This document shows, in pieces, positions 8,472 to 42,165 of a stretch of 64,000 nucleotides of DNA. The first letter of the stretch is position 1. Each line of letters starts with the position of its first letter. The position numbers and the translations under genes were made by a program. The notes under the pieces were generated by a model. It was not told where the DNA came from and searched no databases. It worked only from the letters and a program-made list of their open reading frames with translations. This DNA comes from Thiorhodovibrio litoralis (lineage in GTDB: Bacteria > Pseudomonadota > Gammaproteobacteria > Chromatiales > Chromatiaceae): NCBI RefSeq assembly GCF_033954455.1, contig NZ_CP121473.1, forward strand, positions 4,140,501 through 4,204,500, written 5' to 3'.

Positions 8472-11033
8472 TCATACCTTAAAGCGCCCGACCCGTTCGA
8501 GTTGGTCGATCGCGAGCTGCGCCAACTCTGCCGCTGCGTTGTTGATCTCGCGTGAACCCGTGGCGATCTGATCCATCGCCTGGGCGCTGTTGACCAGGTT
8601 GCGGTCGACTTCCTCGGCGACCGAGCTTTGCTCCTCGGTCGCGCTGGCAATCTGCATATTCATGTCCCGAATCAGCGCCACCGCCTCGGCGATGCTGACC
8701 AGACCAGCGCGCGCGCCCTCAGCCATCTCGGCATTCTTGTCGATCTGTCCGCGTGCCTGGTCCATGGCGCTGACTGCCTGATTGCTGCCTTCCTGCAGGC
8801 GCTCGATCATGGTCTGAATTTCGGTGGTGGAATCCTGGGTGCGGCTGGCCAGGGTGCGCACTTCCCCGGCCACGACCGCGAAGCCACGGCCTTGGTCACC
8901 GGCCCGCGCGGCCTCAATGGCGGCATTGAGCGCAAGCAGGTTGGTCTGATCGGCAATGCCGCGAATGACGTCGAGCACCTGGCCGATGTTGTCGGCATCC
9001 TGGGACAGTCGCCCAACTGCTTCCGCCGTCGATTGAATCTGACGCGCCGTGGTCTGGATAAGCGACGCTGCCTCGCTCATGGTGGACTGGCCCTGCTGGG
9101 TTTCCTGATCGGCTGCACGTGCCGCCTCGGCCGCCTCGGCGGCATTGCGCGCCACCTCGGCGACGGTGGCGGTCATTTCATTCATCGCCGTCGCCACTTG
9201 ATCGGATTCCGACTGCTGCCGACCAATTTGATCGCTGGTGGAACTGCTGGTTGCGGTCAGTTCCTCGGCTGCGGTGGCCACGCGCTGACTGGCGTCAATC
9301 ACTTGCCCAACGAGATCGCGCACCCGTTTCTGGAATCGGTTAAAGGCGTGTGCAAGTTCGGCCAGCTCATCGTTTCCAGTCTCCGACAGGCTATGCGTCA
9401 GATCGCCATCGCCGTCGGCGATGTCGGTCATGGTTCCGCTAGCTGTTTTCACCCGACGCACAATGGCGTGGGCGAGCCAGGACATGCCAGCGACACCGGC
9501 AAGCACGCTGATGATCGAGACGATGATCATGACCGCAGCGGCGTGCTGTGTCTCAGCCGCCGCTTCCTGTCCCATGGCGAGTGCCTTGGCCATTGGCACC
9601 TTGATCTGCACCGCCCAGGGTGCATTGGTATGACCGACTTTGATCGGTTCCAGGGTGAAGATTTCCTCTGCGCCCGAGGGCGAGACGGACTCGATCTGCA
9701 GGGACTCACCACGGGCAACAGCCTGAGCGACCTGATCGCCCTGTCGGTGCAGTCCGGAAACATTCTCGCCAATCAGCTGTGGGTTGCGACTGGTCGCCAC
9801 GACGGTGCCATTGTGGGACAGCACCGCCACGCTGGCCTCGCCATCGAAAAGATCCTGCGCGGCCTGCTCGACCATGCGCTGTAGCTCGCTCAGGCGCACA
9901 TCGATGCCCACCATGCCGCGAAAACCACCCTCGAGCATCACCGGCGCGACTAGCGAGGTGATCATGCTCTCCTGACCCTGAATCTGCTCCATGCGCGGGT
10001 CGATGATCGCCTCTTGGCCAGTCTGCTTGGGAATCTGATAGAAATCGCCCGCCCCGGATTCAGCGTAATCGGTCACGGCGGCCAAGACGGCGGCGCCATC
10101 CCCACCGCGGGTCCAATTGGTCATGAAACGCCCGCTGTCATCAGTGCCTGGGGTGTCCACATAGAACTCGTCCTGGGCATCGAAGGCATCTGGCTCCCAG
10201 ACGGTATAAACGCTGACAAAGTCCGGGTTCTCTTCCAGTACAGACTTCAGCATCTGATTGATGTCGTTGCGCGAGTAAAAGGCAACGCGATGAGACCAGA
10301 CTCCGGAGCCGAGAACCCAGTTCCACTCGGGGATCAGGCGGCCGAAAGCAAGCTTGGGCTGGGGCTCGGTGCTTCCCGGCATCGGCCAGCTATAATGCAT
10401 CCAGCCCTTGCCGTCATCGGCAACTTGTTCATCCATGGCGATGAAGAGGTTCTGGTTGCGCCCCATGGCATTGTCCCACTTGGGATCATCCATGATCTGG
10501 CCATCAAGCTGGGGGGCGTCTGGGTGCATCACCAGGCGCGGCACTGGTTTGTGCCTGTCCTGCACCCAGATATAATTTTCGTCTTCATAGCGCATGGAGC
10601 GCAGTACATCGATCGCTGCGGCTTGCGCTTCCTCCCGCGTCATCTCGCCGCGCTGCTCGGCGGCGATATAGCGCGCGACGATAGATTTGGCCAAATCCAC
10701 CGCCGTTTCCAGACGCTTGAAGCGATATTGAAGTCGCCTCCAATCCTCGTTGGTGAGCTTGTCGTCGTCCGGACGGACCGCCGAGACATAGGCCTGTGCC
10801 AGCGTTCTGGCCGCATCGAGCGGCGCCTCTAGTGCGGCATCAATGCTCGCCGCCTCCCGACTAGCCGCATTGCGCGCTAGTTCGCGCGCCGCCTCCAACC
10901 CGGCCACACGCTGGCTTTCCGCCATGGCCTGCATGCGCGTGACGGCATAGCCGGTGATCACGCCCCCAAGGGCGATCATGCCAACGCCGGACCAAAATGC
11001 GATCCGAAACCCAATCGAATGGCGATTAAACAT
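8472..11033 (-). CDS. Methyl-accepting chemotaxis protein with periplasmic Cache sensor
   Basis: 853 residues from the ATG at 11033 ([14 protein letters not shown]); a start 13 codons upstream is open but less likely. Order: TM1 (about 5-30), a large periplasmic Cache region (about 45-470; [19 protein letters not shown] and YIWVQD typical), TM2 (about 485-510), HAMP, and a cytoplasmic signalling domain. The tip motif is [27 protein letters not shown]-terminal CheR-binding pentapeptide is absent (end ...LERVGRFKV). It senses small molecules outside and controls CheA. Single gene between the Phd scar and the repeat/gadB scar. Confidence 0.93.
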
Positions 11034-11218
11034 GACGACTCCCTTTCCGCTATCGACCCCGTCTGCTCTCATGCGCCCAAAGGTCTCGGGGTTGCCGACC
11101 GCCAGGCTGGTTCGTACCCGGTTTTCGCAGGATTACAGTCAGGGGCCATTTTAGCAGCCGCAGCCAACCACTTCACTGGCGCGGCGCGGCTTAGGCCGCT
11201 TCCCGCATCTCCTGCGGA

Positions 11219-11299
11219 CCACCGTTCAGGGCTGGTTCATGGCTGGGGTAAGGATACCAGCCGAGCAGTGCCTGTAACACGCCAGCAGCCTGCTGACTG
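11219..11299. repeat. 80-bp direct repeat, copy 2
   Basis: Second copy of the segment at 3971-4050. Here the minus-strand tail is longer (LLGWYPYPSHEPALNGGP and further). It lies about 28 bases before the first recognisable codon of the gadB pseudogene. The repeat and the gadB scar therefore travelled together in one duplication. Confidence 0.8.
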
Positions 11300-11326
11300 T
11301 GCGCTCCTTGCAGGGGCGAGCTGGCA

Positions 11327-11736
11327 ATGAAGCGCCGTTGGGAGGCGCGTCGCCAGGCCGAGTGCAAGCCCACCGATAAGCCCAATCTGATCACCGGGCC
11401 GATCCAGATCTGCTGGCACAAATTCACCCGCTACTGGGATATCGAGCACCGCGAGACCCCGATGGACAAGGGTCGGCTCCTGATGACGCCTGAAGAGGTC
11501 CTGAGCCGCTGCGACGAGAACACCATTGGCGTCGTGCCGACGCTGGGCGTGACATTCACCGGAGAATACGAGCCGGTCAGGATCAAGCGATCCATAGGAT
11601 TTTGGTCCGCAACGGCGTCAGCCAGGGCCTCTGTGCGCTGCTCATCGATCACATGAAGGCAGCACTGGAGCATATCGAAGCGCATCCAGTAAAAGAGTCA
11701 CTCACCAGCGAAGATGCATCGGGTTTCCATCATTGA
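11327..11736 (+). pseudogene. gadB pseudogene (twice-deleted copy)
   Basis: Codons match gadB residues from [10 protein letters not shown] to the EYEPV region at about 95% identity. The sequence then jumps to the last 52 codons, now out of frame ([15 protein letters not shown] is the wrong-frame reading), ending at a TGA that corresponds to the natural stop. The central deletion, removing the PLP lysine, joins GAGCCGGTCA to GTCAGGATCAAG. Both parental sites share GTCA, so it is a short-homology deletion. The first about 135 codons are also missing. The 5' flank carries repeat copy 2. It cannot encode an active enzyme. Confidence 0.9.
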
Positions 11737-11846
11737 GCCCGCAATCTGGCGCAGAATGGTCATCAATGCAGCAGGTTCTTCGATAGACTGAAGGGTAGCA
11801 AGCTTCAAGTCGGACGACCCATCGCGGTTGGAGAGGTGTCAGATCT

Positions 11847-13055
11847 ATGGCCATCGAAATCCCCCTGCCACTCACCGTGGTGTTCGCCATCCTGGTGCTT
11901 TTGGTTGGCCGCTGGCTGATCGGGCGCATCGACTTTCTGGCCCGCTACAGCATTCCCGATCCAGTGGTGGGCGGGTTGATCGTCGCTGTGGTGCTGACGC
12001 TCGTGCGGGTTGGCACCGGGACCGAATTGTCCTTCGACATGGGGCTGCAATCGCCGCTGCTGCTGATCTTCTTCTCCACCGTCGGGCTCGGTGCCGATGT
12101 GCGCACCCTGACTCAAGGCGGGCGCAAGCTGTTGTTGCTGCTGGCCGTGGTGGTGGTCGCGCTGGTGCTGCAAAACGTCGTCGGCGTGGCGATTGCGCTG
12201 GGGCTCGATCTGAACCCTTTGATGGGCATCCTCGGCGGTTCGGCGACGCTGGCCGGTGGGCATGGCACCGGCGCGGCCTATGGGCAGGTGTTCGGCGAGG
12301 TGAACGGTCTGCAGGGTGCGGTCGAGGTGGCCATGGCCTGCGCCACCTTCGGGCTGATCCTGGGCGGTGTCCTCGGCGGGCCGGTGGCGCAATGGCTGAT
12401 TCGCCGGCATCACTTGCAGCCCGAGGCACAGTCGGTGGCATCGCTCGGCCCCGGCGAGGTGCCGAAGGACGAACGCCGCGCCCTGAGCCCGGAATCCCTG
12501 ATCGAGACCATCCTGATCCTGATGTTGTGCCTGGGGGTCGGCGCCCTGCTAGCCGAGCGTCTGACCATCCCCGGTATCACCTTGCCGACCTTCGTCTGGT
12601 GCTTGCTGGTGGGGATCATCCTGCGCAATGCGCTGAGTCTGAGCGGGCTGTACCGCATCGACGGCCCCACCATCGAGTTGATGGGCACCGTCAGCCTTTC
12701 GCTGTTTTTGGCCATGGCGCTGATGTCGCTGCGCTTGTGGGAACTGGTCAATCTGGCCCTGCCGATTCTGATCATACTGGTCGCCCAGGCCTTGCTTACG
12801 GTGCTGCTGGTAGTGTTTCTGACCTTCCGTGTCATGGGCCGCAATTATGACGCGGCGGTGATTGCCGCAGGCCAATGCGGCTTTCAGCTTGGCGCAACGC
12901 CCACCGCCATTGCCAATATGCAGGCCGTGACCAGTCGCCATGGCTTGTCGCCGATGGCCTTCCTGCTGGTGCCGATCATTGGTGCCTTTTTGATCGACAT
13001 CTGTAACGCCCTGGTCATACAGGGGTTCTTGGCGCTGCCCTGGTTCGGGTTCTGA
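11847..13055 (+). CDS. gltS: Sodium/glutamate symporter
   Basis: 402 residues with about ten or more membrane helices, the length of E. coli GltS (401). Family features are IPDPVVGGLIVAV near residues 35-47, the GGSATLAGGHGTGAAYG segment near 130-146, and its repeat-partner QCGFQLGATPTAIANMQAV near 347-365. It imports glutamate with Na+. The decayed gadB immediately upstream suggests that an earlier gadB-gltS pair linked uptake with decarboxylation. The start is preceded by GGAGAGG at about 10 bases. Confidence 0.95.
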   Translation: MAIEIPLPLTVVFAILVLLVGRWLIGRIDFLARYSIPDPVVGGLIVAVVLTLVRVGTGTELSFDMGLQSPLLLIFFSTVGLGADVRTLTQGGRKLLLLLAVVVVALVLQNVVGVAIALGLDLNPLMGILGGSATLAGGHGTGAAYGQVFGEVNGLQGAVEVAMACATFGLILGGVLGGPVAQWLIRRHHLQPEAQSVASLGPGEVPKDERRALSPESLIETILILMLCLGVGALLAERLTIPGITLPTFVWCLLVGIILRNALSLSGLYRIDGPTIELMGTVSLSLFLAMALMSLRLWELVNLALPILIILVAQALLTVLLVVFLTFRVMGRNYDAAVIAAGQCGFQLGATPTAIANMQAVTSRHGLSPMAFLLVPIIGAFLIDICNALVIQGFLALPWFGF

Positions 13056-13057
13056 AC

Positions 13058-14728
13058 ATGGTTACATCAGCACGCATTCCAGCCCGCATTTCCATCGGCA
13101 TTTCAACTGCTACTCTGACTGGCATGATCACTGGCATGATCGCTGGCATGATCAATGGCATTGCAGCCAGGTTCGCATTGCCTCGCATCATGCAGCTTCT
13201 CGCCGCCGCGATGCTCGCGCTGCTCCTGGCCGGTTGCGTCGAGGGTCCAGACCAATCCGGCGTTACCCAAGTGGTGCAGCAGCGCCTGACCCAGGCGCTC
13301 GGTGCCGATGCCGTCGAGATCACTCGCCTGCGGCGACTCGGCAGCGGCCCGCTGGACGCGAGCGCCGGCGGACTCAAGCGCCGCATCGTCTATTACAACG
13401 CCGTGCTGACCTTGGCCCGTGATCTGGATTTCTCGTCCTGGGATACGCTCAATGTCGCCGCCTTGACGAACCTGCTTGGCGCCACCAAGCGTGGCATCGA
13501 CGGACTCAAACAGGACGGTAACAGCGCCGGCGACCAAGTCTATGTCCGCGGCAGCGTGAGTTTTGAGAAAGGCGCCGAGGGTTGGACGCCGGTGGATGTC
13601 TTTCACCCAGAGATTGGTGTCGCGAGCACAGGTCCAGCCGGCGCCGAGGAATCACGCCGCATCATCGAGCAAATCAACGCGCTGCTGACCAAGCCTGGCA
13701 AGGATTCCCAGGAGCGCAAGCGCATCATCACCGAGGTGCTAGATGGCGCCTACGATGACATCACGCTGCGACTCGACCGCTTGGAGCGCGCCCTGGTCAT
13801 CGCCGGTGGCTCACCGGACGGCGAATATGCGCGCGTGGCGCAGCTGTTGGCAGATGAGCTGACCGCCGAGGGAACGCTATCGAGCGCGGCCCAGAGCAGC
13901 GGCAGCAAGGAAAACCTGGAGTTGCTGCGTACCGGCAAGGTCGACATCGCCTTGGTGCAGAACAACGTCGCCGCCCAAGCCCTCCTAGGTGCCGAACCCT
14001 TCGCGGTGCTTGGCCCGCACTACACCCTGAATGCCTTGGCTAGCCTGTTCCCGGAGCCGCTGCACGTCATCGTCGCTGCTGATTCGCAGATCACCAGCGT
14101 GCAGGATCTGGCCGGCAAACGGGTCGACATCGGCGATCCCGGTTCCGGCTCCTACCTCAATGCTGTCGCGCTGCTCGCCGCTGCCGGCATCGAACTCACC
14201 GACCTTGGCGCCATCCATAAGACCGGTCTCGCCGGTGGCTTGAACCTCCTTAATAACGGCGAGGCCGATGCCGTCATCGCCACCATCGGCGCTCCTGCCC
14301 GCACCCTGCAGCGAGCTGCTGCTCAAGGCCGGATTCGCTTGCTGCCGCTGAGCGCGGAACTGCGTGAGATGCTGACGCGAGAAGGCGCAGGCTATGTCCC
14401 CATCCTGCTGCCTGCGGCCACCTATCCCGGCCAACGCGAGCCAGTGGCCACCGTTGCGGTGACCGCCGTGCTCGCCGCCAACGAGTCACTGCCGAAGGCA
14501 GACGTCGATCAGGTACTCACGGCCCTGTTTGACCGCATCGACTTTGTTGCTGCCGGCAGCGCGGCGGGTTCGCAGATCACACCCGAGACGGCCGAGCTCG
14601 GGCTGACCATTCCGCTGCACCCGGCGGCCATCGCGTATTACGGGCGGTTTTCGCCATCGTCATCGTCATCGCCATCTCCATCGTCATCAGAGGAAACTGC
14701 CCGCCCGGCGGCCCTTGGGCAGGAATGA
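13058..14728 (+). CDS. TAXI-family TRAP-type solute-binding lipoprotein
   Basis: Up to 556 residues. The first 44 codons are a low-complexity GMITGMIAGMI stretch, and the better start is the ATG at 13190. It gives a lipoprotein signal MQLLAAAMLALLLAGC with the lipobox Cys after LLAG. The C-terminal about 330 residues match TAXI binding proteins (ALVIAGGSPDGEYARVAQ, VDIALVQNNVAAQALLG, GKRVDIGDPGSGSYLNA). These usually bind glutamate-like or other carboxylates for a TRAP transporter. No TRAP permease is adjacent. It begins 2 bases after the gltS stop, so one operon with gltS is likely. A Ser-rich tail ends the protein. Confidence 0.85.
   Translation: MVTSARIPARISIGISTATLTGMITGMIAGMINGIAARFALPRIMQLLAAAMLALLLAGCVEGPDQSGVTQVVQQRLTQALGADAVEITRLRRLGSGPLDASAGGLKRRIVYYNAVLTLARDLDFSSWDTLNVAALTNLLGATKRGIDGLKQDGNSAGDQVYVRGSVSFEKGAEGWTPVDVFHPEIGVASTGPAGAEESRRIIEQINALLTKPGKDSQERKRIITEVLDGAYDDITLRLDRLERALVIAGGSPDGEYARVAQLLADELTAEGTLSSAAQSSGSKENLELLRTGKVDIALVQNNVAAQALLGAEPFAVLGPHYTLNALASLFPEPLHVIVAADSQITSVQDLAGKRVDIGDPGSGSYLNAVALLAAAGIELTDLGAIHKTGLAGGLNLLNNGEADAVIATIGAPARTLQRAAAQGRIRLLPLSAELREMLTREGAGYVPILLPAATYPGQREPVATVAVTAVLAANESLPKADVDQVLTALFDRIDFVAAGSAAGSQITPETAELGLTIPLHPAAIAYYGRFSPSSSSSPSPSSSEETARPAALGQE
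13121..13160 (+). repeat. 12-bp tandem repeat
   Basis: Three and a third copies of GGCATGATCnnT, encoding the GMIT/GMIA/GMIN run before the lipoprotein signal. Every unit contains an ATG, so copy-number change would keep the frame but move potential starts. Confidence 0.85.
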
Positions 14729-14829
14729 GTGAATGCATCGGCATCGACAAGACCTACTGGTCCAATAAATCTGGCAGGTCTGGCTATTAACGTGTATAAA
14801 CGAGACATGAATTTTCCAGGGCAACGACC

Positions 14830-14888
14830 CCTGCCTGAAGGCAGGAACTGTCGCTGCCGCTATCCCTCCCCGCCCGCTAGGGACGGGG
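14830..14888 (+). terminator. Double hairpin before the NTF2-like gene
   Basis: Hairpin 1 is CCTGCC-TGAA-GGCAGG (14830-14845). Hairpin 2 is CCCCGCCC-GCTA-GGGACGGGG (14868-14888), followed by GTTTCTC. It could stop transcription from gltS and the TAXI gene, or act as a leader of the next gene. It also resembles the hairpin-rich right ends of IS200/IS605 elements, but no tnpA or tnpB is present. Confidence 0.5.
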
Positions 14889-14907
14889 GTTTCTCGCGGA
14901 GGAACTG

Positions 14908-15411
14908 ATGAGTAAATTGGCTACCACGACTCTGGCATTGGCAATGAGTATTAGCGCTGGGACTGCGCTTGCGGAGACCAAGCAAACGACGGTCGACGCC
15001 GTCAAGGCGCTGTGGGAACAGCAGCATAAGGCACTCGACTCCCACGATATCGATGGCGTCATGGCCACCTATGCCGACAGCGATGACATCATGCTCATGG
15101 GCACCGGACCCGGCGAGCATTGGGTTGGCCCGGCGGAGGTCAAGGATGCTTATGAACATTTCATGGATGGATTCGACCCCAACACCATGGAGGTCAAGTG
15201 CAGCGACGGTGCCGGCAGCGCGCAGGATGGCGTGACCTGGCTCACGGGCGTGTGCAGCTTCACCGACCAAAAGGCGGAAGAGACTCGCGAGTTCGTGAGC
15301 AACATCTCCGCCGTCCTGGTCAAGCAGGACGACGCCTGGCGCTTTCACAGCATGCATTTCTCACAGTTGATCGGCTGCGAGGCACCCGAGTCACAGGCTT
15401 CAACGAAATAG
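14908..15411 (+). CDS. Secreted NTF2/SnoaL-like protein
   Basis: 167 residues with a Sec signal peptide (cleavage after TALA, residue about 22). The rest is a cone-fold NTF2/SnoaL domain: VKALWEQQHKALDSHDIDGVMATYADSDDIMLMGTG and later WRFHSMHFSQ. Such domains bind small hydrophobic ligands or act as isomerases; no catalytic residue set is certain here. The gene ends 12 bases before the RiPP precursor, so a role linked to the exported peptide is possible but not shown. A good GGAGG precedes the ATG. Confidence 0.75.
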   Translation: MSKLATTTLALAMSISAGTALAETKQTTVDAVKALWEQQHKALDSHDIDGVMATYADSDDIMLMGTGPGEHWVGPAEVKDAYEHFMDGFDPNTMEVKCSDGAGSAQDGVTWLTGVCSFTDQKAEETREFVSNISAVLVKQDDAWRFHSMHFSQLIGCEAPESQASTK

Positions 15412-15423
15412 AGGGCATTTTCC

Positions 15424-15753
15424 ATGACAGACCAGCATGAATTCGACGCCGTCGAGCGCGACACCGAGGCCAATACCGACACTGCCGAGGAACAAGCATT
15501 ACAGAGCCGCCGGGGCTTCCTTCTGGGCCTTGGCAAGTGGTCGAGCGCGGTGATTGTAGGGGCCGTCGCCGGTGGCACACTGCTGCCTGATCGGCCCGCA
15601 CAGGCTGCTGCCTGGATCAACCGCCGCGGTGGCGGTGTCGTTGTAAGAGGCGGTGGTGGCGGTTGGATCGACGGTCGCGGCGGCTATGGCGGCGGCAGTT
15701 GGGCCAACCGCCGTGGCGGCGGCTACGGCGGCAGCTGGGCCAACAGACGCTAA
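15424..15753 (+). CDS. Glycine-rich RiPP precursor with twin-arginine signal (Grr/triceptide type)
   Basis: 109 residues. The first 27 are acidic leader, then SRRGFLLG (R29-R30), a hydrophobic stretch and an AQA site near residue 61, together a Tat export signal. The rest is a Gly/Arg-rich core with four aromatic motifs: W64-I-N, W81-I-D, W93-A-N and W105-A-N, three of them followed by RR. This matches GrrA/OscA-like precursors whose Trp-x-Asn units are cross-linked into three-residue cyclophanes by radical SAM enzymes, and such an enzyme is encoded at 16668. The assignment rests on the motifs plus neighbours; the modified product is inferred. Confidence 0.8.
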   Translation: MTDQHEFDAVERDTEANTDTAEEQALQSRRGFLLGLGKWSSAVIVGAVAGGTLLPDRPAQAAAWINRRGGGVVVRGGGGGWIDGRGGYGGGSWANRRGGGYGGSWANRR

Positions 15754-15772
15754 ACCCCACCCTGGAATGCAG

Positions 15773-15797
15773 CCCGCCGGCACAGCAAGCCGGCGGG
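15773..15797 (+). terminator. Strong hairpin between precursor and maturation genes
   Basis: A perfect 9-bp stem CCCGCCGGC / GCCGGCGGG with a 7-base loop and no following T-run. It sits 20 bases after the precursor stop and 20 before the next start. It is more likely a partial terminator or RNA stabiliser than a full stop, giving more precursor mRNA than enzyme mRNA. Confidence 0.6.
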
Positions 15798-15816
15798 TTC
15801 GACCATCCGCCCATCT

Positions 15817-16671
15817 GTGACCTCTCCCCTCTACCATATCCCGCTCGCGCGCCTGACGGCGTTTCGCGGTCGCGATCTGATCGTGCGCAGCGCTCACCCG
15901 AGCGACCTGGCCGATCAACTCCTTGCGGACGACCTGGCAAATCTCGCCTACGTTCAGTTGCTCGGGCTGCCAGGCGATATCGACGCCCTGATGCACTGGG
16001 CCGAAGACATCGCCATCGATCTGCCGATGGAGCATCCGACGCGCGACTTCACCAGCCTCTACCGTTACGCCAAGCTGCTCAATAATCATCCGGTGCGGGT
16101 ATCGCTGCCGGTTGAGACCGGTTTCGAGAATGCCGTCAAACTGGCCTCCTCACTGCACTTTCAGGTCAGGCTGCTCCTCGGTCAACCGCAACCAGCAAGC
16201 ATCGACGCGCTAGCGCGTCTGCTTCACGACTACCTGCACAGGCCCACGGTGACCCAACCGATCGAGCCTTTCCATAGCCTGCTGCTCGGCTTCTGCCATG
16301 CGCAGCCAACTAGCCTGTGGGCAATTCAGGAAGAAGACCCCACGCTCATTCGCTACATTGACGACCAAGGTCGGGAGCGCCTGCCCGGCCGGCTGGTCGA
16401 CGCAGAAGCCGAGACCAAGGCCGAGACCGAGCATGGCCCGGACCTCAACAACTTTGTCGCGACCTGGAGCAACGAATTAGTGGCTGACGGTGCCGAATGC
16501 GCCGACTGCCCGTTCTTTTCCGCATGCCTTGGCTATTTCAAATGGCCCGACCGCGACTACGACTACGACTGCGCCGGCGTGAAGGCCCTGTTCGCCACCC
16601 TCAAGCAAGCGGGAGACGAACTGCGACAAGACCTCGCCGCCGCGCCTCCGCTGGCGGGAGACGAAAAGTGA
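15817..16671 (+). CDS. Cys-cluster partner protein of the radical SAM maturase
   Basis: 284 residues from a GTG start. No radical SAM motif is present. The first 210 residues are helical and unrecognised. Near the end, C228-x2-C231-x5-C237 (CADCPFFSAC), then C near 250, resembles the auxiliary Fe-S cluster region of SPASM proteins. The stop overlaps the maturase GTG (GTGA), so the two are coupled. It probably helps bind the precursor or supplies a cluster; that is inference from position and cysteines. Its own family is not one I can name. Confidence 0.6.
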   Translation: MTSPLYHIPLARLTAFRGRDLIVRSAHPSDLADQLLADDLANLAYVQLLGLPGDIDALMHWAEDIAIDLPMEHPTRDFTSLYRYAKLLNNHPVRVSLPVETGFENAVKLASSLHFQVRLLLGQPQPASIDALARLLHDYLHRPTVTQPIEPFHSLLLGFCHAQPTSLWAIQEEDPTLIRYIDDQGRERLPGRLVDAEAETKAETEHGPDLNNFVATWSNELVADGAECADCPFFSACLGYFKWPDRDYDYDCAGVKALFATLKQAGDELRQDLAAAPPLAGDEK

Positions 16672-17837
16672 TCAACGGCAATCATTTCTCGCTGATCCTG
16701 CTATCGACCAACCAATGCAACGCCGCCTGCGACTACTGCTTTGAGCACCTGACCGACGACCGCCTGACTCTCGAACGGCTCCAGCGTATCGTCGATAAGG
16801 TGCTGGATCACATGGACGCCCAGCAGATCAGCGCGCTCACCATTCACTGGCAGGGCGGCGAGGCGATGCTGCTGCCACCGAGCTGGTATGCACAGGCCTT
16901 CGCGTTGATCGGCGCGGCCGCCGCAACGCGCGGAAAGCACGTCGAGCATGGATTACAAACCAACATGCTGGCGTACAGCCCGGAATGGAACGACATCATC
17001 GCCGAGATGTTCGGCAACAGCCTCAGCACCTCGCTGGACTACCCCAATCGACATCGCAAGCAGCCCGGTCGCGATACTGAGCACTACGACGCCCTCTGGA
17101 GTCGCAAAGTGCGCATGGCGCGGGATGCCGGCATCGATGTAAAGGCCATCTCGCTGATCAACCAGGGCACGCTTGAGCTGGGTGCGGAGGCGTTCTACAG
17201 CCATCTCGTCGATACGCTCGGCGTCACCGACTTTCAGATCAACACCCCATTTCCCGGCGGCGAGGCGAATGCCGTCAAGCAGCAGTTGTCCCCGGATGTG
17301 ACTCTGGATGTAACGGCACTGGCCCGATTCCACTGCGAGTTGGCCGATCTCTGGCTGGAGCGTGGCTATCGCGACGGCGTGCGCATCGGCCCTTTCGATC
17401 AGCTGCTCGACTACTTCAGCCACCGCGACGCCTGCCTGCCCTGCATCTGGGGTGCGAATTGCGCCGATAATTTCATCGCTATCGACGCTCGCGGTCATGT
17501 CGCCCAATGCGACTGCTGGGTAACCAGCTATCCGGAGTATCGATTCGGCAACATCCTCGACGACGACAGCCTGACCAACCTGCTCCGCCACAGCCCGGCT
17601 CGTGAGCATTTCAACGCGCGCCCAGTGAAGCTCATGCAGGGAGATTGCCTCCAGTGCGATTATCTGTCCATGTGCCACGGCGGCTGCCCAGTGCGCACCT
17701 ACAGCATGCATCAGAGCCTGTTTGAGAAAGACCCCTACTGTCACCTCTACCAATCCCTGTTCCAGCACATGGAATCCCGCGCGACACAGCTTGCCGGCGC
17801 CGCCCTTACGCCAGGCACACGCCTCGGAGCAACATGA
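16668..17837 (+). CDS. Radical SAM/SPASM peptide maturase (GrrM/OscB-like)
   Basis: 389 residues from the GTG at 16668; an upstream extension of the frame overlaps the previous gene and is rejected. C17-x3-C21-x2-C24 (CNAACDYC) is the SAM 4Fe-4S site, followed by [12 protein letters not shown] for SAM binding. The C-terminus holds a SPASM domain with [31 protein letters not shown] and a late C (DPYCHLY). It is expected to form C-C or C-N bonds in the Gly-rich precursor encoded just upstream. Its stop overlaps the start of the next gene (ATGA). Confidence 0.88.
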
Positions 17838-19474
17838 TGAAATGGTTTCGAGATCTGAATTTCTCCCTGAAAATTATCGGGCTGTTCTCCGTGATCTTCC
17901 TGGCCGCCATGCTCCTGTTCGGCAGCCTGCTGATCGACACCATTGTCGACGACTTTCTGGCAGAGAAAACGCTGGTGTCACAGTCAATTCTGGCCCAAGG
18001 CGAAGCCATCCGCCGCCAGATGGGAGAAACCTGGCAAGACAGCCTGTTCAAAGAGGAAGTCTGGAAAGACGCGCAGCGCTGCCGCGAGGAAACCGATCGC
18101 GCCGCACGCCTTGCCTGCGCTCGCGAGACCAAACTGCACAAGGTAATTCCGGTCATCATGATGCTCGAGACGGGCGCACACGCGGCCGAGGAGGCGGGGT
18201 TCCAGCTGCGGGCGGCCAAGCGCACGCGACCGCGCGACCCCAAGGCCCAGGCGACACCGGCTGAACTGCGTCTGCTCGAGCGCATGCAGCAAGAACAGCG
18301 TACCGAGCTCTCGCTTAGGGACGAGGAGAGCGGTCAATTTCTCTTCGCCCGGGCAATCAAAGCCGATGCCGGTTGCCTGGTCTGTCACGGCACGCCCCAG
18401 ACCAACCCGCTCGGGGATGACAAAGACGTCTTCGGGTTTGAGCTGGAAGACTGGCAGATTGGCGAACAGGTGGGCCTGCTGACGCTGACAGCGCCCCTGT
18501 CCGAACTGCACGCGGCCCAACGACAGGCGCTGCTGAAGGTCGGCGCGCTGATTCTTGGCATTCTGGTGATTGGCGGTGGCATTTTTGTCAGCGTCATCCG
18601 CCGTTTCGTGCAGCAACCCGTGGTTGCCATTTCCGGCGGCCTCACCCAGCTTGCCCAGGGCAATCTATCAGTCAAGGTCGCCACCGAGTGTAACGACGAA
18701 GTTGGTCAGGCCGGCAAGGCGCTCAATCAGGCGGCCGCTAAGTTGTCGGAGATTCTCCAAGAAGTGATTTCCTCAGCGGAAAGCGTCTCGGCCTGCAGCG
18801 AGGAACTATCCGCCGCCGGCGCTCAGATTGCCGACGGTGCCTCCCGACAAGCCGTCAGTATCGAGCAGACCAGCGCCTCAATGGACCAAATGTCGCAGCA
18901 GGTCGCAAGTAATACCGACAATTCAGCGCAGACGGAGCAGATTTCCTCGCGCGCGGCTGCCGATGCGCAGGAAAGCGGCCAAGCGGTGAAGGAATCGGTG
19001 GCAGCGATGAAACAAATAGCCGAGAAAATTTCAGTCGTCGAAGAAATCGCTTACCAGACCAACCTGCTGGCTCTCAATGCCGCCATTGAGGCCGCGCGCG
19101 CCGGACAGCACGGCAAAGGCTTCGCGGTGGTGGCGACCGAGGTGCGGAAACTGGCCGAACGCAGCCAGACAGCTGCGAGCGAAATCACCCAGATCGCCTC
19201 CTCCAGCGTTCAGATTTCGGATAAGGCGGACACTCTGCTGCGGGAGTTGGTCCCGAGAATTCAGGAAACCGCCCGATTGATCCAGGAGATTTCATCCAAC
19301 AGCCACACCCAACACCGCGGCATTGATCAGATCAATCAGGCCATCCATGAATTGGAAGGCATCATCCAACAAAACGCCAGTGCCTCCGAGGAAATGTCCG
19401 CAACAGCGACCAATCTCTCCACGCAATCCTCGCAGTTGTTGCGATCAACCGGCTTTTTCAAGATCAGGAAGTAA
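17834..19474 (+). CDS. Chemoreceptor with haem-binding (CxxCH) periplasmic sensor
   Basis: 546 residues: TM1 (about 10-33), a periplasmic DUF3365/Tll0287-like sensor (about 34-225) with CLVCH at 181-185, TM2 (about 233-257), HAMP and a signalling domain with the tip [25 protein letters not shown]. CxxCH in an exported domain is a c-type haem attachment site, so the receptor may sense redox state, O2 or NO. It starts inside the stop of the radical SAM gene (ATGA overlap), which is unusual for a receptor and ties it to the RiPP locus. Ends KIRK, no CheR pentapeptide. Confidence 0.9.
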
Positions 19475-19629
19475 GTGTGTTTCACCTTGACGGATGGGCA
19501 TGAAACCTGTCCGTCGCAGGTGATGACAAATCGCATTGGTTGCACGCATCTAATCAACGACTATGCCCTGCGTGAGTTTTCAACTCGCGTGCGGTTAATC
19601 GAGAATCGTGCCATTCCGGAATTCAAGCC

Positions 19630-21645
<2,016 letters not shown>

Positions 21646-21648
21646 CAC

Positions 21649-24600
21649 ATGACCGCAGAGATGTGGTGGGCCTCGCGCGCGCGCATGATCTCTGGCTTGA
21701 TTGGCCTGCTTTTCCTCCTGAGCGCTGGGTACACCGAGGCCGCGTGTGACGCCTTTGCACTCACCGCCGAGCAACGCGCCTGGCTTGATGCCCATCCGGA
21801 TATCGTCCTTGGAATGACGGATCAATACCCGCCCGAATTGATCCGCGCGGGCGATGGTGAGCTGTCCGGGATCCTGATAGACGTGCTGGACCTACTCAAT
21901 CAACGCCTCGGCAGCTCGATTCGCGTGCAGGCGGATACATCCTCGCCGACGCTGATCGAGGAGGCCCGGGCCGGGCGGCTCGACGGTTTACTGGCGGTAG
22001 CGCAATTGCCGGTTTGGGATGATCAGTTTCTGCTGACCGACAGTTATTTCGAGACCTACCTTTATCTGTACGCGCGTGACGGCGTCTCCCTCGTGGGCAC
22101 CGACCTCGCGGCCTTGTCGGGACAGCGCGTCGGAACGCTCCAGGATCACAAACGCATCAATGCCTTGCTCGCGCCGGTTGCCGAGGACATGGAGCACATT
22201 GAGTTTGCTTCCAATGAAGCCCTGGCCGCAGCGCTGATCGACGGGCGTATCGATGTGGCGGTGGCGCCTGGCACCTTCGACTGGTGGCGACGGCAAAACA
22301 CCATGAGCGACTTCGGCATCGCCGGTGTACTCGAAGGCAGCGAGTACCAGCTTGCCATGGCCATTCGCAAGGACTGGGCACCCCTGGTCAATATCCTCAA
22401 TCTGGGCCTGGCCAGCATTAGCAACGACGAATGGATCGCGATCCTCAGTCACTGGGTCGGTGGGTTGCGGTTCGCGCGCCTGAGCCGGCGCCTCACATTG
22501 ACTGAAGACGAGCGCCGCTGGCTGGACGAGCATCCAGTCATCCGCTATGGCATCAGCGCCTGGGCGCCGATTGAATACATCGATACCGAGGGCCAGCCGG
22601 CCGGCATCGCGCCGGACTATCTGCGCCAGATCGAAGCCCTGCTTGGGGTGCGCTTTGAGCCGCAGACCATCGAGCTTTGGCCCGAGGCGCTGGATGCGCT
22701 CGCGGACGGCAATCTTGACTTGCTTCCAGCGGCCATGCCCCGCAGGCAAGACCGCCAGGGGCCTTGTCATTTCACTGCGCCCTATCTGCGGTTTCCCGTC
22801 GCCATCTTCGCGCGTGTGGAAACGCCTTTGATCGACAGCCTGAGGCGCCTCGCCGGGAAGCGGGTGCTGGTGAGTGAGGGCTATGCCACCGAGGAATGGC
22901 TGCGCGCCGAGCATCCCGAGATCGACCTGGTGCTGGCGCCCGATGTGCGCACAGCCGTGCGCTGGCTGGCCGAGGGGCGGGCCGATGCTCTCGTCGGCAA
23001 TCTGTTCGCGGTGAGTCAGGCGATCACGCTGGAAGAGTTATTTCAGGTCCGCGTCGCTGGCCATACGGACTACACCTACGAACTGGCCATGGCGACCCGT
23101 CCAGATTGGGACATTCTGAACGGGCTGCTTGAGCGTGCGATTGCGGCGATTCCCGTCAGCGAACAGGATGCGATCAAGAGCCGCTGGTTGAGCGCGCAGC
23201 CAGTGCCGCGCATCGACACCCGCTTGGTCTGGCAGGTAACGCTGGCGGTTGCCCTGGTGGTGGCCGTTATTCTGGCCTGGAACCTGAGTCTGGCGCGCCA
23301 AATCCAGCGCCGCCGGCGTGCCGAAGAGCGCCTGGGCGCCAGCGAGCAGCGCTATCGCGGCATGGTCGAGTCGGCCAGTTCAGTGCTTGTGTTTTATTGC
23401 CTGGACAAGCATGGCGTCGTGCTGGATGCGGGGGCTGGCACGCTTGAGCTGTTTGGCATGCAAGAACATGAAATGCTCGGTCGGAACTGGCGCGATATTG
23501 CCGCTTGGAGTGGCGACAGCCTGGTGCTGGGCCAGCGGGCGCTGGCGACCTGCTGGCTTGGCCAGGCACCGGCGCCCGTGACCCTCACCTACGAACTGGA
23601 TGGTGAACGCCGCCATTTGATCAGCTTCCCGCACCCGGTCAAGGATGAAAACAACCGCGTGGTGCGCGTTGAGGGTCTGAATGTCAACTTGACAAAACGT
23701 GTTCAACTTGAGGAAGAGGTCCGTGAGCTGGAAACCGATTTTCGCACCCTGTTTGAGCTGTCCCCGCTGCCGATTCTGATTTCAAGCGGCGCCGATGAAC
23801 GCACGCTGATGGTCAATCAACGCTTTCGCGATCTTGTTGGTTACGAGATCGAAGACATTCCGGATGTCGCGCACTGGTGGCCTAAGGCCTATCCAGACCC
23901 GCACTATCGCCAGCAGATTGTGGCGGAATGGCGACAAAAGACGGCGCGCGCTCTGGCGACGCAAAGCCCCCTTGAGCCTGTGGAAGCGCGGGTATGCTGC
24001 GGCGATGGACAAACCCGAATCTTTGTTGTCCTCGCCACCGGTCTGCACCAGCGGCATCTGGTGATGTTCGTCGACGTGACCGAACAGCGCGCGACCGAGG
24101 CGCGGCTGCGCGCAGCTCAGGAGAAAGCCGAGGCGGCCAATAGCGCCAAGAGCGAGTTTCTCGCCAACATGAGCCACGAAATCCGCACGCCGATGAATGC
24201 CATTCTTGGCATGCAGTATCTGTGTCTGGTGACTGAGCTGGATGAGCGCCAGCGCGAGTATCTGACCAAGGCCCAGAGCGCGACCAAGGCGCTGCTTGGA
24301 TTGCTGAACGACATTCTTGATGTCTCCAAGATCGAGGCCGGGCAGTTACGCTTGTGCGCGCAACCCTTTGCGCTGTCACAAGTTACCGATCAACTGCTCA
24401 ACATCTTCGGTCGTCAGGCTGAGGATAAGGGGCTAGGTTTTCTGATTGATTGCGCGCCCGAGGTGCCCGAGGCGCTCTACGGCGATGCGCTGCGGCTGAG
24501 CCAGATCCTGCTGAACCTGGCGAATAACGCGGTGAAGTTCACCGAACAGGGCGACATTCGCATTGAAGCGCGCCTACTTGAACGCCAGCCGGCGGCGGCC

Positions 24601-26043
24601 GGGCAAAGCCGCGAGCGGGTGCATCTAGAGTTTCGCGTCCGAGATACCGGCATCGGCCTGAGCGAGGAACAGATCGCCACCCTGTTCCAGCCCTTTCAGC
24701 AGGGCGACGGCTCCATCACCCGCCGCTATGGCGGCACCGGGCTGGGATTGTCGATCTGCAAGCGCCTGGCCATCCTGATGGGCGGCACCATAGGCGTGGA
24801 CAGCCTGCCAGGGGCGGGCAGCACCTTCTGGTTTACCATCTGGAGCCAATGCCTGCTCGCGGACGAGCAACCAGTCAGCCATCAACCCCAACTGTTGACC
24901 CAGGCGCCGCACGGTCTGGCCGGTCGGCGGGTGCTGTTGGTCGAAGACAACCCGGTCAATCGCGAGGTCACGCGCGCCATGCTCGAGCGTGCCGGGATTA
25001 TGGTCAGCGAGGCCGAGCAAGGCATCGCCGCGCTCGCGCTGCTCAGTGAGCAGGGCTGCGAGGCCTTCGATCTGGTGCTCATGGACATTCAGATGCCGGA
25101 GATGGATGGGCTGGAAGCGACCCGGCGCATCCGCGCCCGCCCCGATGGCGCCCGGCTGCCGATTATCGGCCTTAGTGCGCATGTCCGCGATGAGGATGTG
25201 ACCCGCACCCGAGAAGCCGGCATGAACGCCCATCTGGGCAAGCCGCTTGATGTCGCTCGCCTTTATGATTTGTTGGCCGAACAGCTCGGCTTGGATGCGG
25301 ACAGCCGTGCTGGTGCTGGTGCCGGCGCTGGCAACAAGCGACCCGCCGAGGCGCTTGAGTTGCCTCCGATCCCAGGGCTGGAGCGCGCCGCACTGAGCGC
25401 CGCGCTGGGTCCGAATCTGGACATGTGGCCGCAGTTTCTTAGGCGTTTTGGTGATACCCATGCCGAGAGTTTGGCGCGCATCGACGCAGCACTGGCGGCC
25501 GGCGACATCGCACTGGCCGAGCGCGAGGCACACAGTTTGGCTGGTGCCGCCAGCAATCTGGGGCTGGTGGAGATTCGCACCGCCGCGCGGGCGCTGGAAG
25601 ATGCGCTAAGAGACCAGCCGCAAGCGGATGCCACGCTGGCCGAGGCGCGCACGCGACTCGCCGAACGGCTGGAGCCGGCACTGGTCGCCATCGCCGCCTG
25701 GCGCGACCAGACCGCTAAGGATCAGGCGGCTGCGGATCAGGCCGCCACTCAGGCACCGACCGAACCGCCCACACCAGTCAGCTGTGAACGCCTGCAAGAC
25801 CTGCTGGCGCGACTGTACGATTTGACCCAGGCGTACGACCCGCTCGCGGAGGATCTCTGGCTTGAGGAAAATACCCTGCTGCAAGCCGGCCTCGATCCGG
25901 ATGAATATCGACGCCTGGAGCGCCAAATCACCGGCTATCGGTTTCCCGAAGCCAGTGAGACGCTGGCGCAGTTGCGCGAAGCGATAGCAGCCAGCGCATC
26001 AGCGCCGAGCATTAATCGCGCTTCCCAATCGCGATCTGCTTGA
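21649..26043 (+). CDS. BvgS/EvgS-like hybrid sensor kinase
   Basis: 1464 residues. Order: signal or membrane anchor (about 12-28), two periplasmic SBP_bac_3 (Venus flytrap) domains (about 40-275 and 285-525), TM (about 528-548), two PAS domains, HisKA ([16 protein letters not shown] near 840), HATPase_c ([33 protein letters not shown]), REC ([25 protein letters not shown] near 1145) and Hpt ([16 protein letters not shown] near 1290). BvgS-type kinases are switched by the flytrap domains and pass phosphate H-D-H to a response regulator. The cognate DNA-binding regulator is not in the window. Confidence 0.93.
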
Positions 26044-38499: not shown

Positions 38500-38928
38500 A
38501 TGCGCATGGATTGGGCAAAAGCGTCCTTCAAACCCTTGCTTCGGCGTCTCACGCGGTGGTTACCCAAGTCGTCGCGCGCCCGTGCAATGGTTGCCGTCGG
38601 TGTTTTTGGCCTGCTGGTCTTCTCGATGCTCCAGTTGGCCTTTCAATCCTTCGCCATCCGCGAGGCGCAGCACCGCCAACAGGCACTCAACGGCATCGCC
38701 AGCGACTACGCGCAGTCCCTGCAACTTAGCCTGACCGACGCGCTCTCGGCCTTGAATGCGCTTGAATCCATTCTGATCATGGAAGACTACAACCCCAGGA
38801 AATTCGATCACTGGGGTCAAGCCCATACCATTACCCATATCTCCCCGCCCCAGCGTCGTCCGGGGCTGGACACAGCTCCCGAGTTCTGCTGAGATGCCCT
38901 TTCATCTTCAGCAAGGGGACGGGAGACC

Positions 38929-39810
38929 ATGGACCAAGCGATTCCAAGCCGTTTATGTGGGCGCCCTTTCAACGAGACCGACTTAGCGCGCATTCGCCAG
39001 GAGATCGCGCTGGCGCAGCCGCCGCTGCGCGCGGAGATCGCTCGGCGGGTGTGCCGCGCGCTGGAGTGGACCGATATCCAAGGCCGCCCCAAGCTCATGA
39101 GTGCCCGGGTGGGACTGCTGCGGTTGCATCGTGCCGGGCTCATTGTGCTGCCGCCACCGACCTGCGGCAATGGCAATGGGCGGCGCTTCGTCCCGCGCCC
39201 CGAGTCCCGGCCCGAACCGATCCCAGTGTCCGTCCCGCTGCGCGCGCTCAGCGGCTTGCGCCTGGCGCGCGTTGATGATCGAAGGGCCTCGCAATTATGG
39301 AACGGCCTGATCGAGCGCTACCACTACCTCGGCTACAGTCCCCTGCCTGGTGCGCAGCTGCGCTACCTGATCCAGTGGGATGGCGGTCTGCTCGGCGCCA
39401 TCGGCTTTGGCGCGGCGGCCTGGAAAGTCGCTGCCCGCGACCGCTGGATTGGCTGGACGCCCGCGCAGCGCCAAGCACACCTGGGACGGGTGCTCAACAA
39501 CGCCCGCTTCCTCATCCTGCCCTGGGTGCAGGTCAAACACCTCGCCTCCAAGGTGCTGTCCTTGGCCGCGCGGCAAGTCAGTGTCGACTTTCCCGCCCGC
39601 TATGGCGAGCGTCTGGTGCTGCTGGAGACCTTTGTCGAGACCCCACGCTTTGCCGGGACCTGTTACCGTGCCGCCAACTGGCACGACTTGGGCGAAACCA
39701 CCGGGCGCGGCAAGTGCGACCGCACCCATCGGGCCGCGCTGCCGCGCAAGGCGATCTATGTCTACCCGCTGGCGGCGGACTTCCGCGCCGCCCTGGGGGT
39801 GGTGGCATGA
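38929..39810 (+). CDS. DruA-like (DUF4338) protein carried by the IS
   Basis: 293 residues. WNGLIERYHYLGYSPLPGAQLRYLIQWDGGLLGAIGFGAAAWK and ARFLILPWVQVKHLASKVLSLAARQV are the DUF4338 core, the family that includes DruA of the Druantia phage-defence system. Within IS elements this family occurs beside Tn5-like transposases and probably helps transposition. No other Druantia gene is adjacent, so defence is not implied. Its stop overlaps the transposase start by 4 bases (ATGA). Confidence 0.85.
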   Translation: MDQAIPSRLCGRPFNETDLARIRQEIALAQPPLRAEIARRVCRALEWTDIQGRPKLMSARVGLLRLHRAGLIVLPPPTCGNGNGRRFVPRPESRPEPIPVSVPLRALSGLRLARVDDRRASQLWNGLIERYHYLGYSPLPGAQLRYLIQWDGGLLGAIGFGAAAWKVAARDRWIGWTPAQRQAHLGRVLNNARFLILPWVQVKHLASKVLSLAARQVSVDFPARYGERLVLLETFVETPRFAGTCYRAANWHDLGETTGRGKCDRTHRAALPRKAIYVYPLAADFRAALGVVA

Positions 39811-41177
39811 TCGCGCTGGCCTCTGAACTGCAGGACATCTCTCTGGGCGACAAGCGCCTGAATCATCGCGCCCAACAGGTGCTTGAAACCCTCGGCGCCA
39901 AGCCGACACAAAGTATTCCCGGGGCTTGCAACGGTTGGTATGAGACCCGGGCCGCCTATCGCTTTTTCGATCATCCCACGGTCACCGCCGAGCAGATCCT
40001 CGCACCCCATTTTGCTTGTACCGAAGAACGTCTGCGCGAGCATCCGCGGGTGCTGTGTATCCAAGATACCAGCGAGCTGGACTATACAACCAAAAAAGGC
40101 ATTGTCGGTCTTGGGCCACTGAACTTTGAGAGCCGCTATGGGATGTACATCCATCCCACCTTGGCGGTCACGCCCGAGCGCCTCGCGCTGGGGCTGCTGG
40201 ATTTGCACACTTTTGTGCGCGAGCCCGGTAGCCTGGGCCAGGACAAAGACTCGCGCCGCCCACTGGAGGAGAAAGAAAGCGTGCGCTGGGTCGATGGCTA
40301 CGCGCGCGTCAATGCGCTGGCCGAGGAACTGAGCGACACGCGCTTGACCTATGTTGCCGATCGCGAGGGCGACATCTACGACCTGTTTGTTGAAGCGCCC
40401 ATCCCCGAGAACAGCGCCGATTGGCTGGTACGGGTGCAGCATCGCGACCGCTGCTTGGCCGATGGCAGAAAGCTCAATGAGGCCCTGGACGCCGCTGCGG
40501 TGCTCACCGAGATCACCTTCGAGCGTCCCGCCACCAAGGGGGCCAAAGCACGCCAGGTCACGCAGGAGATCAAGGTGGTGCGCGTGACCCTGAAGGCACC
40601 CTGGCGCCCGGATCGCACCTTGCCCGATGTCACGGTCACGGCCTTGCTCGCCACCGAGGTCAATCCACCCGCCGGCGAGGAGCCACTCAACTGGCTGTTG
40701 CTGACCAATCTGGCGGTGCAGAGCGCCCAAGAGGCCATCGAGACGCTCTCCTGGTATCTTTGCAGGTGGCAAGTGGAGATTTTTTTCCGGATCTTAAAAA
40801 GTGGCTGCCGCATCGAGGAGCTGCAGCTCGAGACGCGCGAGCGCCTGGAGCCGGCGCTCGCTTTGTACATGATCATCGCGTGGCGGGTGCTGTACCTGAC
40901 CATGCTCGGGCGCGAGTGCCCGGAGTTGCCTTGCGATGCGGTCTTTGCCGAGGAGGAATGGAAGGCGGTCTATCTGGTCACCCAGAAACAAGCGCCACCC
41001 GAGCAGCCGCCCTCGCTCGATACCATGGTGCGCATGGTCGCCTCCCTGGGCGGCTTTCTCAACCGCAAATCCGATGGGTTCCCGGGACCGAAGACGCTCT
41101 GGATTGGGTTGCAGCGCATCCCCGATTTTGTCATGGCGCTGGAGGCTTACCGCAGCGTCAGGGATAGTTATGGGTAA
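39807..41177 (+). CDS. Tn5/IS4-family transposase
   Basis: 456 residues from the ATG at 39807; the longer upstream frame overlaps DruA and is rejected. LGDKRLNHRAQQVLETLGAKPTQSIPGACNGWYETRAAYRFFDHP is the Tn5 DNA-binding start. IQDTSELDY holds the first catalytic Asp, VADREGDIYDLF the second, and WYLCRWQVEIFFRILKSGCRIEEL the third acidic residue with the YREK-like signature. It is apparently intact, in a fresh-looking element. Confidence 0.93.
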   Translation: MIALASELQDISLGDKRLNHRAQQVLETLGAKPTQSIPGACNGWYETRAAYRFFDHPTVTAEQILAPHFACTEERLREHPRVLCIQDTSELDYTTKKGIVGLGPLNFESRYGMYIHPTLAVTPERLALGLLDLHTFVREPGSLGQDKDSRRPLEEKESVRWVDGYARVNALAEELSDTRLTYVADREGDIYDLFVEAPIPENSADWLVRVQHRDRCLADGRKLNEALDAAAVLTEITFERPATKGAKARQVTQEIKVVRVTLKAPWRPDRTLPDVTVTALLATEVNPPAGEEPLNWLLLTNLAVQSAQEAIETLSWYLCRWQVEIFFRILKSGCRIEELQLETRERLEPALALYMIIAWRVLYLTMLGRECPELPCDAVFAEEEWKAVYLVTQKQAPPEQPPSLDTMVRMVASLGGFLNRKSDGFPGPKTLWIGLQRIPDFVMALEAYRSVRDSYG

Positions 41178-42165
41178 TGGTATGGGTCAAGCCATCCTCA
41201 AAACGACCCACGACATTTCTGCGGTGCAGCTCGCTCCAGCAGGCATTGTGCGTCATGTCGTCCCACGCCAAGGCAATGAGAAGGCATTGGGACATGATTT
41301 GCTCGCGGACAGTCGCCGGGATGCTGGCGCCAGAAAAGCCATCGCGCGCGATGCGATTACCTTTGTCGGCCCCGTCCGGCTGATTCAAAACGGCAAAATG
41401 GCCATCATCGCGAGGAAGCCCATTTTTCGCCCCAGCAATGATCCTGACGACTTTTGGGGTTTCGTCATCGTGCTGATTGATCTGGATACTCTCCTCAACA
41501 ATCAACCGCTGTTGACGAACAATCCGGATCTGGCCTGGCGCCTGTTTGGTGAAGATCCCGACAACAATAAATCAACTGGCCACCCGCTGATCGCCGAGTC
41601 CGCGAACGCGGGTGCCGTGGAAACCTGGGATCTGTCTTACGACATTGTTGTACCTAACGGCCGCTGGCGAATGCAGTTGGCCGATGTCAAACCATCCAGC
41701 AATCAGTGGTTATTGTGGCAAATCCTGGCCGTCTTTGTGACCGCGCTTTTCTGTTGGGCCTTCTATCAGTATCTCAAGCATCAAAATGGCTTGGCCATTC
41801 GCCTGCGTTACGAAAGACATTTTGCTGGGTTTTCAAATACGCTTGCGGCGGACAAAACGGACGCGATGAGCTACTGTTTGCAAGATCCTCTCGATGCGGC
41901 TCAGTGCTCCCGCGTCTATATTTTTGAGAATTTTGTCGATCAGGAGCAGCGACCGGCGTTTCGGCAGACCCATGAAGTCTGTGCGCACGGCGTTGCATGC
42001 CAGTTGGACAATCCAAAATTGCAGCATGTCCTTTGGGAACAGGACGGTTTTGAGCGATGGCAAACTGAGCTTTCGCATGATCGGGTGATCAACGGCGTCA
42101 TCGCAACCTTTCCTCCAGCGGAACGCGCCATACTCGAGCCGCAAGGTATCAAATCCATTTTAATT

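Follow-up and report, generated by a model that had tools for sequence, protein, structure and literature searches.

A conserved RiPP-type cassette with a Tat-like precursor leader and a predicted pseudo-radical-SAM partner adjoins an unrelated haem-c chemoreceptor in Thiorhodovibrio litoralis

The stretch of the genome of the purple sulfur bacterium Thiorhodovibrio litoralis analyzed here (the window; 64,000 nt from a single-contig genome of 5.47 Mb) contains a run of five genes on the plus strand, encoding a SnoaL-like protein, a small peptide, a Cys-cluster protein, a radical S-adenosylmethionine (SAM)/SPASM enzyme and a haem-c chemoreceptor (Table 1; all positions are those of the window). 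An earlier reading, made from the sequence alone, had described this run as a locus for a ribosomally synthesized and post-translationally modified peptide (RiPP), with a twin-arginine translocation (Tat)-signal precursor and a coupled receptor. The gene run itself is borne out by the open reading frames (ORFs) and their sequences, as is the reported overlap between the stop codon of the enzyme gene, hereafter the maturase gene, and the start of the receptor gene (ATGA at 17834); the stop codon of the Cys-cluster gene and the start of the maturase gene also overlap, as GTGA at 16668. Pfam matches over their cut-offs identify Radical_SAM (40.8 bits) and SPASM (22.8 bits) domains in the maturase and Tll0287-like (PF11845, 62.2 bits), HAMP (25.5 bits) and MCPsignal (117.3 bits) domains in the receptor. 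Comparison across genomes shows that the peptide, the Cys-cluster protein and the maturase recur together, and that the receptor gene abuts them at a rearrangement breakpoint.

Table 1. Features of the gene run and the breakpoint in the window.
Feature	Positions	Strand	Basis
SnoaL_3/NTF2-like protein, 167 aa; Sec-type signal peptide by eye	14908..15411	+	ORF; Pfam SnoaL_3, 54.4 bits (cut-off 22)
Precursor peptide, 109 aa: acidic N-terminus, twin-arginine motif, AQA site, Gly-rich core, four W-x-N/D	15424..15753	+	ORF, alignment
Precursor leader segment SRRGFLLGLGKWS, containing SRRGFLLG (from 15505)	15505..15543	+	Alignment
W-x-N/D motifs WIN (15613), WID (15664), WAN (15700) and WAN (15736); presumed cross-linking sites	15613..15744	+	Sequence, alignment
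Cys-cluster protein, 284 aa; predicted pseudo-radical-SAM/SPASM partner without CxxxCxxC	15817..16671	+	
Four conserved Cys of the Cys-cluster protein (C228, C231, C237, C252)	16498..16572	+	hhalign pairs with maturase C327, C330, C336, C358
Radical SAM/SPASM maturase, 389 aa; GTG (16668) to TGA	16668..17837	+	Pfam, NCBIfam, DNA comparison
Breakpoint: left side 85% identical to the sister cassette, right side 97% to the sister receptor locus	17800..17801	none	DNA comparison with G028
Chemoreceptor, ATG at 17834: Tll0287-like (sCache_heme) sensor, HAMP, MCP signaling domain; juxtaposed, apparently outside the conserved cassette	17834..19474	+	Pfam, searches
Receptor CxxCH haem-c attachment motif (C181–H185)	18374..18388	+	Read from sequence

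To define the conserved unit, we combined a maturase scan of one genome per species, which gave 21 loci, with a family search that found the maturase in 17 of 194 genomes; after seven contigs judged by length and position to be common to both sets were dropped, the 39 locus records came to 32 distinct loci, a count that takes in the window and another cassette from its genome. These loci span Gammaproteobacteria, Desulfobacterota and Acidobacteriota, and among the hosts named in the per-species scan are Thiorhodococcus, Halochromatium, Lamprocystis, Thiodictyon, Accumulibacter, Methylococcaceae, Pyrinomonadaceae, Syntrophobacteraceae and Desulfobacteraceae. The Cys-cluster protein is present at 31 of the 32 loci, the exception (L015) beginning 19 bases before the maturase, and its gene is partial or split in three (L014, L082 and L086). 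Of 210 genomes of the order, 18 encode it, and the 17 genomes with the maturase (of 194) are all among them; across a sparse sampling of the phylum it was found in 1 of 398 genomes, namely the window's own. A relative of the SnoaL-like protein was detected by tblastn at 23 of the 32 loci, which makes it a frequent companion of the core cassette. The second cassette of the window genome (L087, about 9577–12280, at 5.18 Mb) has all four genes, with a maturase 58% identical to that of the window. Another locus (L005, 5253–7062) carries two tandem SnoaL-like/precursor pairs followed by one Cys-cluster gene and one maturase gene.

The precursor peptides share a two-part pattern. The window peptide has no match in Pfam or NCBIfam (E 0.1). 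The 18 aligned members have invariant R29, R30, F32, W39 and S40 in the leader and invariant W64, N66, W93, N95, W105 and N107 downstream, the latter forming three fixed W-x-N units. Most of these members were first chosen by a twin-arginine pattern, and a count that does not demand RRxF is the fairer measure. Such a count over 5325 six-frame stretches from the 32 loci, window included, gave 30 with three W-x-N/D motifs close together, 28 of which have RRxF within the preceding 60 residues; the other two are an unrelated frame of the window and a DUF3604 protein. Because 28 of the 30 rich frames come after RRxF, the peptide pattern is not a product of chance. A similar rule (RRxF followed by at least three W-x-N/D) returned 28 peptides, every one upstream of a maturase and none at other places. 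Precursors were thus found upstream of the maturase at 27 of the 32 loci, two copies being present in L005, with the nearest copy 771–1189 bases away. At the five remaining loci, the DNA ends just before the maturase (L015 and L086) or the cassette genes are broken (L021, L022 and L082). A Tat substrate would be expected to combine a twin-arginine motif with a hydrophobic stretch and an AxA site; the window peptide has such a motif and an AQA site, and its leader may be a Tat-like signal.

The Cys-cluster protein eluded family databases: the window protein has no Pfam or NCBIfam match (E 0.1), Pfam returned only scattered weak matches for 24 members (best E 0.008), and a search of PDB sequences with a profile of the protein gave no match at E 1. 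Its predicted structure has a radical SAM/SPASM fold over most of its length, and hhalign relates it to the maturase with the Cys sets of the two proteins aligned (E 2e-4, probability 47). The CxxxCxxC motif is found in 22 of 22 maturases and in 0 of 24 Cys-cluster proteins. Because the predicted fold is radical SAM/SPASM-like yet this motif is absent from every member, we term the protein a pseudo-radical-SAM partner, which lacks the SAM-cluster motif and is predicted to keep only one SPASM-type Cys set.

The maturase itself falls among several known families without belonging to one. Its NCBIfam scores are 138.3 bits for TIGR03942, 135 for DynA, 121.8 for DarW, 97.7 for DarE and 78.5 for GrrM/OscB (TIGR04261), below every one of the respective cut-offs (349.45, 450, 650, 650 and 310 bits), and these scores place it between named families. 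The sequence-only reading had pointed to Grr/Osc-type radical SAM enzymes; by NCBIfam, the maturase is not a member of that group. The GrrA/OscA-type precursor model TIGR04260 (cut-off 31 bits) does not match the window peptide; it matches 9 of the 18 precursor members with E values no higher than 1 (9.8e-6 for the strongest), and the best of 10 members scored singly reached 26.1 bits. We rejected direct Grr/Osc membership, since neither the maturase nor the precursor reaches the NCBIfam cut-offs. Given that the maturase is far below all family cut-offs, its chemistry was inferred from the substrate rather than from enzyme family. A review describes OscB as linking Trp C7 to the β-carbon of Asn or Asp at i+2 (PMC11002830). 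Because W-x-N/D is the motif that OscB links in that account, three-residue cyclophanes are our first guess for the modification. Triceptides in general pair aromatic-x-N/D or similar motifs with a neighboring SPASM radical SAM enzyme, an arrangement seen at 27 of the 32 loci. The proposal of a RiPP locus with a Tat-signal precursor holds for the sequence pattern, which combines a Tat-like signal with OscB-type W-x-N/D motifs, and fails for the receptor.

A search with the whole receptor through all 39 locus records, which represent 32 distinct loci, matched only the window itself at E 1e-3. None of the 31 other cassette loci has a methyl-accepting chemotaxis protein (MCP) gene in the flanks examined; the DNA past the maturase covers at least 1.2 kb in 28 of them and at least 5 kb in 23, the shorter L016, L020 and L022 being little informative. 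A genome survey for the receptor beside the maturase, on which the earlier reading had staked the proposed link, covered 210 genomes of the order: 2 encode the receptor (E 1e-30) and 18 the Cys-cluster protein, taken as the cassette marker, and the two adjoin only in the window genome; their contact is therefore seen in one genome only. Weaker Tll0287-type matches in 37 of 194 genomes (E 0.001) show that this sensor domain is common and not tied to the cassette.

In the sister genome G028 the two stand apart. Its maturase, 90% identical to that of the window, is encoded at 1.742 Mb; the receptor, with a sensor that is 99% identical, lies at 3.098 Mb, a distance of 1.36 Mb. Window blocks 11708–14664 (96%), 14768–17801 (85%), 17800–19473 (97%) and 19602–25980 (94%) map to four separate places in G028. 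The G028 maturase ends in ...QLAGAIN with its own stop, according to the DNA comparison, whereas the window maturase takes its last 11 residues from sequence that it has in common with the G028 receptor leader; by eye, the G028 receptor, with the same 34-base leader, comes after an MscS-like gene. Because identity to G028 switches from 85% to 97% at 17800/17801, this position, inside the last codons of the maturase, is a rearrangement breakpoint, and the ATGA overlap is its by-product. The proposed link between receptor and RiPP is not borne out, and we rejected receptor–cassette coupling on the grounds of non-conservation and the breakpoint. As far as such a comparison can refute membership, the receptor appears to be juxtaposed by accident and not part of the conserved cassette.

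Two further observations concern the same region. From 10001 to 25980 the order relative to G028 is scrambled into blocks of about 1–6 kb, several of them 94–97% identical yet far apart, beside the 85% block; the published average nucleotide identity within the genus is 79–84% (PMC10609205). The G028 maturase is followed by a convergent gene (L070, 8107–8931) with the look of a class D β-lactamase type by eye.

Taken together, we give a probability of roughly 60% to the reading that a conserved RiPP-type cassette combines a cross-linking maturase, a pseudo-radical-SAM partner and Tat export, and that the receptor touches it as the outcome of a rearrangement. Two unrelated modules would then meet at 17800/17801, the cassette (14908 to the maturase end) and the haem-c chemoreceptor. 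The maturase, with the pseudo-radical-SAM protein as its helper, would bind the precursor leader in the cytoplasm, and a three-residue cross-link would form in each W-x-N/D motif with the loss of two hydrogens per motif, of which the window peptide has four. The rigidified peptide could then be exported through Tat and cleaved after AQA (Ala61), yielding a periplasmic core of about 48 residues that the Sec-exported SnoaL-like protein, where present, might act on or bind. On its sequence pattern, the cassette most likely represents a new triceptide-like family exported by Tat. We advance more tentatively, at somewhat less than even odds, the fuller proposal that the cassette founds a RiPP family of its own, where an active radical SAM/SPASM enzyme and a dedicated, catalytically dead look-alike holding one iron–sulfur (Fe–S) cluster staple a multi-W-x-N peptide that is exported by Tat in its cross-linked form, often alongside a periplasmic SnoaL-like protein.

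Several results weigh against this reading. The SnoaL-like gene is missing at 9 of the 32 loci, at least four of which (L007, L013, L076 and L083) have about 8 kb of upstream DNA covered; it is therefore not essential, and the core consists of the peptide, the Cys protein and the maturase. Models of sulfatase maturases and of dynobactin DynA give the maturase higher scores (138 and 135 bits) than the GrrM model does (78 bits), and among solved structures its best matches are anaerobic sulfatase-maturating enzymes (anSMEs; PDB 4k36–4k39). The hhalign probability for the Cys-cluster protein and maturase pair is moderate, and Foldseek alone gives E 1e-3. The NCBIfam Tat model TIGR01409 leaves the window peptide unmatched and matches 1 of 18 members, below cut-off (12.2 versus 16.7). 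Finally, in a comparison aimed at which gene order at the junction is the derived one, the tail of the window maturase faintly resembles those of Thiorhodococcus and Halochromatium, a likeness that shuffles reach in 76% and 13% of cases, respectively.

The alternative that survives best, although we consider it unlikely, is that the enzyme modifies the W-x-N peptide in another way, by other Trp cross-links, epimerization or hydroxylation. DynA, DarW and DarE all outscore GrrM on the window maturase, and at E 1e-20 each of the models for DynA, TIGR03942, DarW and DarE recognizes all 22 maturases and the GrrM model 15 of 22 (as member counts only). The darobactin core contains W-x-W. The motifs of our peptides are instead regular W-x-N units, mostly Gly-spaced and without such a core, and Asn or Asp at i+2 recurs throughout the precursors; both points count against another reaction.

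It is less probable still, to the point of being improbable, that the maturase is a formylglycine-generating, anSME-like sulfatase maturase to which the peptide is an accessory. TIGR03942 is its best NCBIfam match and anSMEs are its relatives in the PDB, yet the 138 bits are under the family cut-off of 349, and the peptide is conserved together with the maturase. Genomic context cuts both ways. In the window genome, a broken remnant of a third Cys-cluster gene (L101, 5652–5938) comes directly after an arylsulfatase gene whose product has a CSPSR site. A sulfatase gene 90% identical to that one lies directly upstream of the cassette on the same strand in G004 (L081, 7391–12196), another directly after the cassette in L006 and a third about 7 kb away in G028 (L070). 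Against this, arylsulfatase matches occur in the flanks of only 3 of the 32 loci (L006, L070 and L081). A sulfatase gene is present in 26 of 28 cassette genomes; none appears at E 1e-10 in G602 or G118 (89% complete), although the G118 cassette, which shares a contig with L004, is a full set of four genes. Alkylsulfatase genes also occur nearby, in a cassette flank in Halochromatium and after the maturase in Thiorhodococcus minor (L003, 9177–13378), where a DUF3604 gene follows. Sulfatase neighbors are a possible hint at the context of the peptide.

Functional coupling of the receptor to the RiPP system, whose redox state or product it would sense, is highly improbable: the ATGA overlap, a GGAG box that precedes the receptor start by four bases in the window genome and the presence, by domain type, of parts of both systems outside the cytoplasmic membrane are outweighed by the receptor's rarity relative to the cassette, its position behind another gene and far from the cassette in G028, and the lack of an MCP gene in the flanks examined at the 31 other loci, including the second cassette of the same genome (L087).

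A plasmid search with the maturase (E 1e-40) and a phage search with the Cys-cluster protein (E 1e-5) gave no match, and PHROGs returned only weak matches to the window peptide and Cys-cluster protein (E 0.07 to 0.19). A promoter and terminator scan found no excess over shuffles. Rfam and ARAGORN identified one tRNA-Ser, at 63 kb, in the window. Window positions 38823–41187 correspond to a multi-copy element, 99% identical at two places in G028 and 88% at a third. Among the literature matches listed, none describes a Tat-exported triceptide, a pseudo-radical-SAM protein as partner in a RiPP system or a receptor linked with a maturase of this type; those matches do not cover the two main papers on triceptides, which may hold an earlier description.

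With the tempting link between a RiPP maturase and a chemoreceptor removed, the cassette is the part of this locus that deserves attention. It has members in three phyla, a peptide and a Cys protein whose window copies match no Pfam or NCBIfam model, a predicted pseudo-radical-SAM partner and a twin-arginine leader. If our reading is correct, the cassette would illustrate a route by which modified peptides pass through Tat, and nature would offer in it an example of a radical SAM fold that has no activity of its own and acts as partner for substrate or electrons. The cassette is a scattered and apparently unnamed triceptide-like system, marked by its Tat-like leader and by a partner that is unusual and presumably inactive.

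Comparison with known systems sets these features in relief. With the GrrM/OscB and GrrA/OscA (TIGR04261/TIGR04260) triceptides, the cassette shares a SPASM radical SAM enzyme and a Gly-rich peptide with repeated aromatic-x-N/D motifs; it differs in the score of its maturase (78.5 of 310 bits) and in its precursors, the window peptide having no TIGR04260 match and the best of 10 members scored singly reaching 26.1 of 31 bits. To our knowledge, GrrM/OscB systems have no twin-arginine leader, pseudo-radical-SAM partner or SnoaL-like protein. Among proteins of solved structure, the maturase is nearest in sequence to anSME (TIGR03942; PDB 4k36–4k39), from which the window maturase is set apart by its score (138 of 349 bits), its dedicated W-x-N peptide and the presence of sulfatase genes near few cassettes. 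The best structural match of the Cys-cluster protein is the radical SAM protein ChlB with the ChlA leader (PDB 9gm3 and 9gmc), unlike which it lacks the SAM-cluster motif, at 12% identity. The receptor, compared by domains only, is of a described kind, the sCache_heme (DUF3365/Tll0287) chemoreceptors reported in 2026; PMC12889525 reports nitric oxide (NO)-sensor properties in a signaling member and nitric oxide binding in a member other than this one. The receptor shares their sensor domain, CxxCH motif, HAMP domain and MCP output and is perhaps a nitric oxide sensor by analogy; it differs from them in abutting an unrelated cassette.

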